DNA of 64,000 nucleotides from an uncultured Paracoccaceae bacterium (GTDB lineage: Bacteria; Pseudomonadota; Alphaproteobacteria; Rhodobacterales; Rhodobacteraceae), in contig CAKZOU010000073.1 of the NCBI GenBank assembly GCA_937138255.1, positions 1 through 64,000 of the forward strand, read 5' to 3'. Below, one piece after another: positions 30,876-35,336 of this stretch. The position numbers and the translations under genes are program-made. The notes beneath the pieces were generated by a model. That model ran no database searches and was not told the origin of the DNA. It saw nothing but the letters and a program-made list of their open reading frames with translations. Position 1 is the first letter of the stretch. Each line of letters starts with the position of its first letter.

Positions 30876-32183
30876 ATGATCCCCCGCTATGCCCGCCCCG
30901 AAATGACCGCCATCTGGTCGCCCGAAACCAAATTCCGCATCTGGTACGAGATCGAGGCCCACGCTTGCGACGCGCAGGCCGCGCTTGGCGTCATCCCCAA
31001 AGAAAGTGCCGCAGCCGTCTGGAGGGCCAAGGACGTCGAGTTTGACGTGGCCCGCATCGACGAAATCGAAGCCGTCACCAAACATGATGTGATAGCCTTC
31101 CTCACCCACCTTGCCGAACACATCGGCTCGACCGAGGCCCGATTCGTCCATCAGGGTATGACCTCGTCCGACGTCCTCGACACCACCCTCAACGTCCAGC
31201 TCGTCCGCGCCGCCGATATCCTTCTGGCCGACATGGACAAGGTCCTCTCCGCGCTCAAGAAGCGCGCCTTCGAGCACAAGGATACCGTCCGCATCGGCCG
31301 CAGCCATGGCATCCACGCCGAGCCGACGACCATGGGCCTGACCTTCGCCCGCTTCTACGCCGAGATGGACCGCAACAAGGCCCGCCTTCTGGCCGCCCGC
31401 GAAGAGATCGCCACCGGCGCGATCTCGGGCGCTGTCGGCACCTTCGCCAATATTGATCCCGCCGTCGAAGAGCACGTCTGCAAGATGCTTGGCCTGCGCC
31501 CCGAGCCGATCAGCACGCAGGTGATCCCGCGCGACCGCCACGCGATGTTCTTTGCCACCCTCGGCGTCATCGCCTCCTCGATCGAGAACGTCGCCATCGA
31601 GATCCGCCATATGCAGCGCACCGAGGTTCTGGAAGCGGAAGAGTTCTTCTCGCCCGGCCAAAAGGGCTCGTCGGCCATGCCGCACAAGCGCAACCCGGTC
31701 CTGACCGAAAATCTCACCGGCCTTGCCCGCCTTGTCCGCATGGCGGTTGTCCCGGCGATGGAAAACGTGGCCCTCTGGCACGAGCGCGATATCTCGCACT
31801 CTTCCGTCGAGCGCGGTATCGCGCCGGACGCGACCATCACCCTCGATTTCGCGCTCAACCGCCTCGCCGGTGTGATCGAAAAGCTCGTCATCTACCCCGA
31901 GAACATGCTCAGGAACATGAACAAGTTCCGTGGCCTCGTGATGAGCCAGCGCGTCCTTCTTGCCCTCACTCAAGCCGGCGTCAGCCGCGAGGACGCCTAT
32001 CGCCTCGTCCAGCGCAACGCCATGAAGGTCTGGGAACAGGGCAAGGACTTCAAGGAAGAACTCCTTGCCGATGCCGAGGTCACGGCGGCACTGTCTCCGG
32101 CCGAGATCGAAGAGAAATTCGACCTCGGCTATCACACCAAACACGTCGACACGATCTTTGCCCGCGTTTTCGGCAAGGGCTGA
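30876..32183 (+). CDS. purB: Adenylosuccinate lyase
   Basis: 435 residues of the fumarase/aspartase superfamily. The signature loop is GSSAMPHKRNPV (about residues 265-276) and the catalytic region includes THQGMTSSD-like VHQGMTSSDVLDT and GRSHGIHAEPTT. It acts twice in purine synthesis (SAICAR to AICAR, and adenylosuccinate to AMP). The opening MIPRYARPEMTAIWS is typical for alphaproteobacteria. A strong terminator separates it from the convergent luxI. Confidence 0.97.
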   Translation: MIPRYARPEMTAIWSPETKFRIWYEIEAHACDAQAALGVIPKESAAAVWRAKDVEFDVARIDEIEAVTKHDVIAFLTHLAEHIGSTEARFVHQGMTSSDVLDTTLNVQLVRAADILLADMDKVLSALKKRAFEHKDTVRIGRSHGIHAEPTTMGLTFARFYAEMDRNKARLLAAREEIATGAISGAVGTFANIDPAVEEHVCKMLGLRPEPISTQVIPRDRHAMFFATLGVIASSIENVAIEIRHMQRTEVLEAEEFFSPGQKGSSAMPHKRNPVLTENLTGLARLVRMAVVPAMENVALWHERDISHSSVERGIAPDATITLDFALNRLAGVIEKLVIYPENMLRNMNKFRGLVMSQRVLLALTQAGVSREDAYRLVQRNAMKVWEQGKDFKEELLADAEVTAALSPAEIEEKFDLGYHTKHVDTIFARVFGKG

Positions 32184-32216: not shown

Positions 32217-32879
32217 TCAAGCGGTCGCTGCCGCGTGCACCGGCTGGCGGCCCTGAGGCAAATGGGTCGCCGCAGGGGTATGCTGCCGGGGTTGCGCGGC
32301 GGTTGCCGACATACTCAAAACAGCATAGCGCCGCCCGTCGCCTTCGTTGAGATAGGGCTCTCCGATCCGCTCGGCGTCAAAGCCGAGCTGCCGCAGCGCC
32401 CGCATCAGCGAGATCGGCGAAAGCGACATGAGCCGCGTGGCACCGTTCCTTGCGGCCACGTCGATCAGGCCTCCGACGATCAGTGACAAACATTCGCTGC
32501 GATCAATCTGGGTATCAACATCGTCTGAGATAACGAGACGTGTGCATTCCCACATCTGAGCATTGGCAACATCCGCTGGCATAACTTCGGCGGGAATATC
32601 GACCAGTTTGCCGGCAAAGGCATCCCGAAGCATATAGGTGTGCTGGCCCCAGGTTGCGGTAGTAGCCATTGTTCTGGCCCCGCCGACAACCTGTCCATCC
32701 CGAAGCACCAAGGAATAGTGCGCGGTTGGATTGTCGTATTGGTCCATCTCCACTTTGTCATTGTGAGGGATGTGCCAACCGAGCGTATCGACGAAGAAGC
32801 GCTTTCGCAGGGCCAGATAGTCAAAATAGGCGCTGCCAAACATATGCATCGTCGACATGTCGAATGTGATGTTTTCCAT
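32217..32879 (-). CDS. Acyl-homoserine-lactone synthase, LuxI family
   Basis: 220 residues from ATG 32879, with AGGAGAG upstream; the frame extends to 32969 across the palindrome but without a start signal. Conserved LuxI residues are present: Arg and Phe in LRKRFFVDTLGW, Trp in the same block, the acidic pair in EMDQYDN, Arg in VVGGARTM, and Glu/Arg in MWECTRLVISD. It makes an AHL from SAM and acyl-ACP. The C-terminal ~30 residues are a Gln/His/Pro/Ala-rich tail unlike the core. It lies downstream of luxR on the same strand, 146 bases apart. Confidence 0.95.
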   Translation of the reverse strand: MENITFDMSTMHMFGSAYFDYLALRKRFFVDTLGWHIPHNDKVEMDQYDNPTAHYSLVLRDGQVVGGARTMATTATWGQHTYMLRDAFAGKLVDIPAEVMPADVANAQMWECTRLVISDDVDTQIDRSECLSLIVGGLIDVAARNGATRLMSLSPISLMRALRQLGFDAERIGEPYLNEGDGRRYAVLSMSATAAQPRQHTPAATHLPQGRQPVHAAATA

Positions 32880-32901: not shown

Positions 32902-32922
32902 AGTTGTACATTAGTTACAACT
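32902..32922. promoter_or_regulatory. lux-box-like palindrome upstream of luxI
   Basis: Perfect 7-bp arms AGTTGTA (32902-32908) and TACAACT (32916-32922) around a 7-base spacer. It is the only strong dyad in the luxR-luxI interval and is the expected kind of LuxR target. It ends only 23 bases from the luxI ATG, closer than usual for an activator site centred near -42. Confidence 0.55.
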
Positions 32923-33025: not shown

Positions 33026-33655
33026 TTAGATGAGTCCAAACTCCGAAGCCATCGCGGCGGCCTGAGCCCCGGTCTGCGCTCCGAGCTTCAGCTTTGCGTT
33101 CTTCAAACGCTGCTTGACCGCGCCCTCGGACACGCCAAGTTCATAAGCTATCTGCTTGACTCGCAAGCCATCTCTGACCATCCGCAGCGCCTCAAGCTCT
33201 GCAAGAGTAAGGTTGCTGGGCGGTGCTTTTTCGGCATGCAAACGCTGGATATGACCGCGCAAGAGATCAATTTCGTACTGGGTAAACTCGCGATCCGACC
33301 GCGCGAATGTCCCAAAAGAGCGCTGACCTTCGGGGTTATTATCAAAGACACTGACCGCCACGCCATAGCGCAGCCCGAAGCTTTCAGCCTTGGCAAGAAC
33401 CCCCCGGACATCGTCAAAGTCGATCTCGCTCCAACGGATTGTGCCGGTTTTGGAATAAACCCAGCGAATCACGGGATCGGCCATCATGTAGCGTTCGGCG
33501 GTATAGTGGCTTACCCAATCAGCCGGAAGCGCATTGATTTCTTCCAGCGGAAAAGCAAAGCCAACACGCAGGGCAAGATAATATCCAGCCGGAGCGATTT
33601 CGCTCAAATCGTTGATGGCTATCTTTTGAAGCATCATCCTGTCGAAGCGTGTCAC
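33026..33655 (-). CDS. LuxR-family quorum-sensing regulator
   Basis: 209 residues from a GTG at 33655 (ATG 33637 or 33634 are alternatives; no Shine-Dalgarno sequence is strong). The AHL-binding domain keeps the family's pocket residues: Trp and Tyr in DWVSHYTAERY, Asp-Pro in MADPVIRW, Trp in TIRWSEI, and the FARSDREFTQYE block. The C-terminal GerE helix-turn-helix is intact (LTLAELEALRMV, then QIAYELGVSEGAVKQRLKNA). It should sense the product of the downstream luxI. A palindrome lies 10 bases upstream of its start. Confidence 0.95.
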   Translation of the reverse strand: MTRFDRMMLQKIAINDLSEIAPAGYYLALRVGFAFPLEEINALPADWVSHYTAERYMMADPVIRWVYSKTGTIRWSEIDFDDVRGVLAKAESFGLRYGVAVSVFDNNPEGQRSFGTFARSDREFTQYEIDLLRGHIQRLHAEKAPPSNLTLAELEALRMVRDGLRVKQIAYELGVSEGAVKQRLKNAKLKLGAQTGAQAAAMASEFGLI

Positions 33656-33664
33656 TAGGGAACT

Positions 33665-33681
33665 GCACTAAAGTCTAGTGC
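33665..33681. promoter_or_regulatory. Palindrome upstream of luxR
   Basis: GCACTA (33665-33670) and TAGTGC (33676-33681) flank a 5-base centre, starting 10 bases before the luxR GTG in the 111-base region shared with the divergent HTH-less gene. It is a candidate autoregulatory site. Its sequence differs from the luxI palindrome, so a different regulator is possible. Confidence 0.4.
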
Positions 33682-33766
33682 CATCCGGTCATTTTGGGTC
33701 TTATATCCGAAGAAAGCTATGCTACCTATATATCATCAAGCAACCTAAAAGCGAGTAAACAGGGTT

Positions 33767-34258
33767 TTGTCAGCCACTCAAACAGAAATCCGCGCGGTCC
33801 TGTCTGATTTGAAGATTTTGGCGGCGAACGGCTATGCCGCAGCGCTTCACATCAATTTCACGACACCGGCATTTCTCTTTCAGACCTACCCGACTGACTG
33901 GCTGGCGATCTATTCGCAGCAGGGGATGGTTATGAAAGACCCGACGGTTCTGTGGGGGTTTGAAAACCTCGGGACAGTGCGGTGGTCCGATCTGATCGCG
34001 CTTGACAGTGACGGTGTCATGAAAGAGGCGACCAAATTCGGCATGAAATTTGGCCTCACAGTCGCCGTCGAACGCGGCGGTACGAGATCCATCTCGAGCC
34101 TGTCGCGTAGTGATCGTGAATTCTCTGATAATGAGCTCGCACAAGCTGCGGATATGATTGCCAAACTTCACGATTTGACGGCGCAGGCCCCAACCCTCAC
34201 AGACGAAACACGCGTTGCTCTGCGCCGACAGTCCATCCAAGTCACACATCCGTCCTAA
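33767..34258 (+). CDS. AHL-binding-domain protein without a DNA-binding domain (truncated LuxR paralogue)
   Basis: 163 residues from a TTG at 33767, the only possible start between the in-frame stop at 33746-33748 and residue 54. It aligns along its length with the neighbouring LuxR ligand domain: DWLAIYSQQGMVMKDP, GTVRWSDL, KFGMKFGLTVAV and SRSDREFSDNEL match the same blocks, and the pocket Trp, Tyr, Asp and second Trp are all kept. It ends at TLTDETRVALRRQ, which corresponds to the first helix of the LuxR GerE domain, so the helix-turn-helix is absent. No remnant follows in the 52 bases before fliG. Dominant-negative dimer partner or AHL sink are possible roles (inference). Confidence 0.85.
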   Translation: MSATQTEIRAVLSDLKILAANGYAAALHINFTTPAFLFQTYPTDWLAIYSQQGMVMKDPTVLWGFENLGTVRWSDLIALDSDGVMKEATKFGMKFGLTVAVERGGTRSISSLSRSDREFSDNELAQAADMIAKLHDLTAQAPTLTDETRVALRRQSIQVTHPS

Positions 34259-34310: not shown

Positions 34311-35336
34311 ATGTCAGAGACCGCAGCCCTAACCCGCCGCAGCAAAGCCGCCTTGATCTTGCGCCTCCTCGTCGGCGACGGAAAGGGTCTTTCTCTGGCC
34401 GAAATGCCGGAAGAGACCCAGATCACTCTTGCTCGCGAAATGGGCAAGCTTGGAAGCATCGACAAAGCGACGGTCGATCAGGTGGTCGACGAATTTGCCG
34501 GCCAGCTTGAAAAGGTTGGGCTTGGGCCCGCGGGTGGGGTCGCCAAGGTGATCGACGGATTGGCCGATTTACTTAGCCCAGAGGTTGCAGCAAAGCTGCG
34601 CGACGAGGCGCGCAACGGGCCCCCGCCTGATCCTTGGGATTATGTTCGGTCTCTGGAATTGCCAGAACTCAAACCGATTATGGAAAACGAAACCGTCGAG
34701 ACCTCCGCCGTTATCCTGTCGCGGTTACCGGTCGCCAAGGCCGCACCGCTTCTGGGCCTGCTACCCGGTGAAAAGGCGCGTCGCATCGCGTTTGGTGTAT
34801 CGCAGATTGGCGCCATCGCGCCTCAGACAGTTGCCATAATCGGTGCTGCGCTCGCCAGAGCCTATACCCGCCCTGCCCAATCGGCTTTCCCAGATGACCC
34901 CAGCGAGCGGATTGGCGAGATCCTGAATGCCGCAACGGCTTCAACCCGCGACGATCTTTTGGCGGATTTCGCATCCAACGATCCCGTATTCGCAGACAGG
35001 GTCCGCAAGGCGATCTTTACCTTCGCTGATATCCCGCTGCGAATTGCCGGGCCTGACATTTCGAAGATTCTTCGTGGCCTTGATGGGCGTGAGCTTGCCA
35101 CGGCGCTGGCTTTTGCAACCGCCACAGGTGGTGCCGATCAAGAGGCCTTCGATTATATCTTTGCCAACCTCTCGCAGCGGATGGGCGAACAGATCCGTGA
35201 AGAGGTGAAGGATCGAGGAAAAGTCAGAAAAGCCGACGGCGAGGCGGCACAGTCGGCCTTTGTTGCAGCGATACGCGCCGCTGTGGATGCCGGAGAAATC
35301 GTCTTGGTCGAGGAGGAAACCGAAGAGGAAACCTAA
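34311..35336 (+). CDS. fliG: FliG-like flagellar motor switch protein
   Basis: 341 residues with the three FliG domains: N-terminal KAALILRLLVGDGKGL, middle (ILSRLPVAKAAPLLGLLP) and C-terminal torque domain (FADIPLRIAGPDISKIL, ALAFATATG, LSQRMGEQIREEVKDRGKV). FliG links the MS ring to the C ring and contacts the stator. Compared with well-known FliG it is divergent and ends in an acidic tail (VEEETEEET). No other flagellar gene is in the window. It starts 52 bases after the HTH-less AHL protein (GGAGGC upstream of the ATG), so the two may share a transcript. Confidence 0.8.
   Translation: MSETAALTRRSKAALILRLLVGDGKGLSLAEMPEETQITLAREMGKLGSIDKATVDQVVDEFAGQLEKVGLGPAGGVAKVIDGLADLLSPEVAAKLRDEARNGPPPDPWDYVRSLELPELKPIMENETVETSAVILSRLPVAKAAPLLGLLPGEKARRIAFGVSQIGAIAPQTVAIIGAALARAYTRPAQSAFPDDPSERIGEILNAATASTRDDLLADFASNDPVFADRVRKAIFTFADIPLRIAGPDISKILRGLDGRELATALAFATATGGADQEAFDYIFANLSQRMGEQIREEVKDRGKVRKADGEAAQSAFVAAIRAAVDAGEIVLVEEETEEET

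Follow-up and report, generated by a model that had tools for sequence, protein, structure and literature searches.

Within the window (the whole 64,000-nt stretch of DNA analysed here), a short, cerN-like LuxR paralogue is encoded divergently from a full-length, cerM-like LuxR, with luxI and purB beyond the latter and fliG on the other side (Table 1). As a preliminary description of this DNA had claimed, the product of the short gene is a LuxR ligand domain without a helix-turn-helix (HTH): hmmscan assigns it the autoinducer-binding domain Autoind_bind (PF03472) at 56 bits (cut-off 23) and finds no match to GerE, the C-terminal HTH domain of a two-domain LuxR. The partner LuxR carries both domains (Autoind_bind, 61.5 bits; GerE, 38.5 bits). 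The same division is seen among aligned homologues, with GerE absent from 39 of 39 short members and present in 21 of 21 partners (Pfam). Identity between the short protein and the divergent LuxR is 34% over 148 residues (E = 6e-29); GtaR/LuxR1-type regulators are about 40% identical to the short protein, compared with 34–35% for the adjoining LuxR.

Table 1. Positions of genes and other features of the locus, numbered along the window
Feature	Position	Strand	Remarks
purB (adenylosuccinate lyase)	30876..32183	+	beyond luxI; other flank of 'topology D' locus
luxI (AHL synthase)	32217..32879	-	220 aa; Autoind_synth 54 bits
inverted repeat AGTTGTA-N7-TACAACT	32902..32922	.	perfect; upstream of luxI
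partner LuxR (cerM-like)	33026..33655	-	autoinducer-binding domain and GerE HTH, 209 aa; Leu at TraR Y53 equivalent
GerE/HTH domain of partner LuxR	33047..33214	-	residues 148–203
divergent promoter region, luxR/short gene	33656..33766	.	between the two genes
conserved leader element GCAACCTAAAAGCGAGTAAA	33740..33759	+	before short gene
short LuxR paralogue (cerN-like)	33767..34258	+	autoinducer-binding domain only, 163 aa, TTG start
C-terminal helix of short protein	34202..34240	+	residues 146–158, equivalent of partner's first HTH helix
fliG	34311..35336	+	starts 52 bases downstream of short gene

The pocket residues, which the preliminary description took to be kept, are indeed present in the short protein, all six of them: W45, Y49, D58, P59, W73 and G96, corresponding to TraR W57, Y61, D70, P71, W85 and G113. 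An AlphaFold model (pLDDT 90.6, pTM 0.86), for which the best Foldseek matches are RhlR, SdiA, QscR and TraR, predicts a LuxR ligand-domain fold. In this model, a long helix (residues 121–139) of the dimerisation type of the LuxR family is intact, and the last helix was matched, through a model of the partner, to that protein's first HTH helix. The preliminary description had the protein stop at the equivalent of that HTH helix, which its tail does reach; the similarity, however, goes past the ligand domain and the tail is itself conserved. The tail motif L-x(3)-S-[IV]-x-x-T-H recurs across the short family, a further sign of selection. The TTG start, read beforehand as a hint of low expression, says little, being conserved throughout the genus while 86 of 97 relatives are read with ATG.

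The closest copy of the short protein (91%) is found in a Marivivens metagenome-assembled genome (MAG), and the window therefore most likely comes from Marivivens. In the congener G004, the inverted repeat upstream of luxI retains its arms and has an altered loop; it is a candidate LuxR operator or RNA hairpin. Elsewhere, the window's genome has a second luxR–luxI pair and a further luxI-like gene (G000:C66:94938-96217 and G000:C65:69522-70001), so the organism may produce more than a single AHL.

Distribution and conservation of the short gene

We surveyed 61 relatives and then 395 Rhodobacteraceae genomes, about one per genus, retrieving the loci and analysing their open reading frames with HMMs. 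Of the 394 genera sampled, at least 67 have the short HTH-less protein; named loci include those of Marivivens, Flavimaricola, Loktanella, Yoonia, Octadecabacter, Histidinibacterium, Rubellimicrobium, Defluviimonas and Halocynthiibacter. A full LuxR is encoded beside the short gene in all 97 non-redundant copies, divergently in 94 and in tandem in 3, and, within the stretch read, luxI lies near 85 of the 97 and fliG near 45. A ligand-domain-only protein beside luxRI, which the preliminary description had proposed to look for in other Rhodobacteraceae, is thus widespread in the family. Among about 380 other alphaproteobacteria searched, no verified short homologue was found, only partial matches to the autoinducer-binding domain (ABD), and a search for a phage match to the short protein found none. 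One open frame of 151 residues with an autoinducer-binding match, from another alphaproteobacterial family (G685:C54:21504-21707), could be an independent HTH-less LuxR.

Several loci depart from the common layout. Two short/full LuxR pairs occur together in Loktanella salsilacus (L066 and L069, genome G010) and in genome G135 (L128 and L158). On a Qingshengfaniella alkalisoli plasmid of 323 kb, typed as mobilizable (L225, NZ_CP042264.1), the order is a tandem luxR–luxI–short gene. In L131 (6915-7729; genome G003, same genus as the window), luxI is apparently split into two overlapping frames, possibly through a frameshift or a MAG assembly error. An in-frame stop breaks the short gene of one relative (L200, 1442-1975), and in L210 (4364-4891) the HTH has apparently been lost from the partner LuxR itself.

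Several lines of evidence support the earlier claim that the short gene has a working product and is not decaying. First, an HTH remnant, already said to be missing from the bases before fliG, was sought up to 360 nt downstream of the 97 short genes, the window's included, and none was found (best E = 0.19); in the positive control, the last 90 residues of the partners were recovered in 97 of 97 cases. Second, each of the 97 non-redundant members, and each Marivivens copy that was read to the end, is short and lacks the HTH, leaving no HTH-bearing close homologue of the kind that the preliminary description had considered. Third, selection is purifying: the short gene has dN/dS ratios of 0.28 (Fisher p = 8e-4) and 0.16 (p = 7e-7) against two congeners, none of the within-genus changes falls on a pocket residue, and other pairs give 0.03–0.16. 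The corresponding values for the partner LuxR within the genus are 0.08 and 0.05; the short protein is therefore diverging somewhat faster than its partner (0.28 versus 0.08).

Descent, CerN/CerM orthology and pocket asymmetry

CerN of Cereibacter sphaeroides is a LuxR homologue that lacks the HTH, and its gene lies beside that of CerM (Hernandez-Valle et al. 2024, PMC11655674). CerM functions independently of AHL; CerN–AHL binds CerM, lowers its DNA binding and releases it from DNA; and without cerN the cells no longer respond to AHL and ctrA expression is blocked unless cerM is also lost (PMC11655674). One genome of our survey, G079, is C. sphaeroides: a stretch of its plasmid matches C. sphaeroides 2.4.1 records at 100% identity. 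Its gene order and its Autoind_bind scores for CerN, CerM and CerR (65, 46 and 130 bits) match those published (66, 47.5 and 128), and its CerN and CerM are 30% identical, compared with 31% in the published account (PMC11655674). Compared with these two proteins, identity is 38% for the window's short protein (to CerN) and 44% for its LuxR (to CerM).

Trees were built from 81 ligand domains (IQ-TREE) and from 232 rows, over about 145 columns. In the 81-domain tree, the short proteins form one clade that includes CerN (29 of 29; UFBoot 100, SH-aLRT 99), and the partner LuxRs form a second, which includes CerM (support 100/99). By this phylogeny, the short protein is the orthologue of CerN and its partner the orthologue of CerM. 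The 232-row tree places 98 of 99 in the short clade, the exception being L210, the partner LuxR without its own HTH. Both clades fall inside the GtaR/LuxR1-type family; its members keep the HTH and are typically found at the rplQ locus. Because the short proteins are a single clade and these relatives retain the HTH, the domain was most simply lost once, long ago. A recent duplication of the neighbouring LuxR as the source of the short gene is ruled out by the 34% identity and the separate clades.

Across the short clade, the pocket is kept almost without exception (W45, Y49 and D58 in 97 of 97; P59 and W73 in 96; G96 in 93). The difference between the two clades lies at Y41 of the short protein, four residues before W45, the site of TraR Y53 and LasR Y56, which contact the ligand (PMC9654057, PMC4993992). 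Tyr occupies this site in 92 of the 97 short proteins and in only 3 of 97 partners, of which 79 have Leu; 24 of 31 other full LuxRs, mostly of the GtaR type, have the Tyr. On the alignments, loss of this Tyr is the general difference between partners and short proteins. In C. sphaeroides, W57F was proposed as the reason for the weak AHL affinity of CerM (PMC11655674). This substitution occurs in 1 of 97 partners, C. sphaeroides alone, and is rejected as a general cause of low partner affinity; in this respect the C. sphaeroides model is therefore not general.

Elements in the leaders of the short gene and luxI

About two-thirds of the loci carry a leader consensus, GCAACCt-N-AAAGCGAgtA, whose spacing to the start codon of the short gene is almost constant (mostly 22–30 nt). 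In leave-one-out scans the leader element is the best site of its own locus in 49 of 67 cases, and it is single-copy both in the window and in the window's genome. Exact copies in 25 genomes searched lie directly before the short gene in 7 of 7 cases; near-matches elsewhere in these genomes show no excess over a reversed control. Compared by eye, the element and the CerM site TATCCAAAAAGACAG share about 10 of 15 positions, but the element fits the CerM motif and the GtaR palindrome poorly. It may be an operator of the partner LuxR or an mRNA element.

A separate hairpin, ACTCTCC-N5-GGAGAGT, occupies the last 25 nt or so before the start of luxI in many relatives (among them L107, L085, L092, L111 and L121), not in the window. 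It encloses the Shine–Dalgarno sequence, and its outer stem covaries, the observed pairing being reached in 0 of 500 permutations. No Rfam family matches the window or four hairpin-bearing loci. The hairpin possibly serves translational control of luxI.

Proposed mechanism, alternatives and known systems

We consider it probable that the short gene encodes a functional CerN-type partner of the divergent LuxR, which removes that LuxR from DNA in the presence of AHL. In support are the pairing in 97 of 97 loci, the single clade shared with CerN, the partner clade shared with CerM, the kept pocket, the Tyr asymmetry, purifying selection, the dimer-type helix and the published displacement of CerM by CerN–AHL (PMC11655674). 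Counting against it are the restriction of W57F to 1 of 97 partners, the lack of any co-evolution of the pair above common ancestry and the somewhat faster divergence of the short protein. AHL made by LuxI would bind the intact pocket of the short protein, which would then pair through its ligand-domain helix with the CerM-like LuxR; in the presence of AHL the resulting heterodimer, with a single HTH, would take the partner off DNA or block it. Together the two would form a split quorum receptor, with the short protein as the main sensor and the full LuxR as a DNA-binder minus one ligand contact. By analogy with the characterized pair, we infer that the Marivivens proteins work as CerN and CerM do, with the same sign, and the short protein is likely to act as the AHL sensor through which an AHL-independent LuxR is relieved, and not as a threshold-raising buffer. 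More tentatively, and somewhat short of probable, the split receptor may have had one origin, in a duplicated GtaR-like receptor: one copy would have given up DNA binding but retained the full AHL pocket, the other would have remained a DNA-binder without the Tyr, the two becoming obligatory partners that control themselves through the leader element.

An alternative, which we judge unlikely, follows TrlR of the Agrobacterium Ti plasmids, likewise a LuxR ligand domain that lacks an HTH and forms dimers with a full-length LuxR: the window's LuxR would need AHL, and the short protein would form dead heterodimers with it or soak up AHL, raising the threshold. The same domain is lost and the pocket is intact; with the exception of CerM, the partners retain W57 and D70, and they may themselves be able to bind AHL. 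However, TrlR is a recent near-copy of TraR, to which it is 88% identical, and its target needs AHL, whereas the short protein is no orthologue of TrlR and, at 34% identity to its neighbour, is an old paralogue in a separate old clade. Further, the partners lack the Tyr contact to AHL, the orthologue CerM acts without AHL, and deletion of cerN loses the AHL response (PMC11655674). For the Marivivens pair, we regard the TrlR-like model as less likely than the CerN model. The preliminary description had taken TrlR as the analogy and proposed that the short protein titrates LuxR or AHL to set the quorum threshold. The dominant-negative idea is of the right type, and an interaction with the adjacent LuxR is indeed published for CerN, which is the better precedent; threshold-setting is doubtful, given that C. 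sphaeroides no longer responds to AHL once cerN is lost (PMC11655674).

Less probable still is a short protein independent of its partner, carrying AHL as an adaptor for another LuxR or a different protein. The pair shows no co-evolution beyond common ancestry (partial r 0.06, p = 0.25), two further LuxR-type proteins are encoded in the window's genome, and C. sphaeroides has six LuxR proteins under hierarchical control (PMC11655674). Against this stand the invariant pairing with one LuxR clade in 97 of 97 loci and the published direct interaction of the orthologues (PMC11655674). Finally, that the short gene is a recent truncation or pseudogene in slow decay, as a dN/dS somewhat above its neighbours' and the one broken copy might suggest, is extremely improbable, as constant length and a conserved tail in at least 67 genera, single origin, the lack of any HTH remnant and significant purifying selection with an unchanged pocket rule out a frameshifted HTH or a pseudogene.

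On the CerN-type reading, the 'luxR–luxI' loci of many marine Rhodobacteraceae (Loktanella, Yoonia, Octadecabacter and Marivivens) are to be read as luxI–luxR–cerN triplets, which alters what is expected of their logic, including the question of AHL turning LuxR on or off. The Tyr asymmetry and the CerM-specific W57F offer direct mutational handles.

Compared with CerN, the window's short protein likewise lacks an HTH, retains the whole WYDPWG pocket, is encoded divergently from a full LuxR and belongs to the same clade, and its partner falls in the CerM clade. The loci differ in that luxI directly follows the CerM-like gene in the window, whereas C. sphaeroides has cerR, orf2 and cerI; in that fliG lies downstream of the short gene in the window; and in that the window's partner has W57 where CerM has F. 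Control of CckA/ChpT/CtrA and motility would be expected of a CerN-type antagonist; in the window only the neighbouring fliG hints at it. Flagellin is matched just once in the window's genome, by an N-terminal fragment of 45 residues within a frame of 58 aa (G000:C65:10642-10776), so the motility of the organism is uncertain despite fliG beside the module. GtaR and LuxR1 of Rhodobacter and Dinoroseobacter, at about 40% identity, belong to the family that contains both clades, and differ in being full-length single receptors, typically with luxI at the rplQ locus.

The locus itself was partly catalogued before. Roseobacter 'topology D' loci comprise fliG, two luxR genes, luxI and purB (Cude & Buchan 2013, PMC3824088), and an ABD-only gene of LuxR group 4, 'abd', was described with sequestration suggested by analogy with TrlR (Subramoni 2015, PMC4338825), so that the sequestration idea of the preliminary description is anticipated. 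The locus in the window is identical in type (fliG, ABD protein or second luxR, luxR, luxI and adenylosuccinate lyase). Those accounts covered six genomes or two genera, without a phylogeny of ABD-only proteins or a link to CerN, compared with at least 67 genera here; a 2026 review of LuxR protein interactions names TrlR, and CerN is absent from it (PMC13043044). New here are the breadth of the family, its single origin, selection on pocket and tail, the loss of the Tyr from the partners and the conserved leader element, and with them CerN/CerM, an isolated case in one species, becomes a family-wide design.
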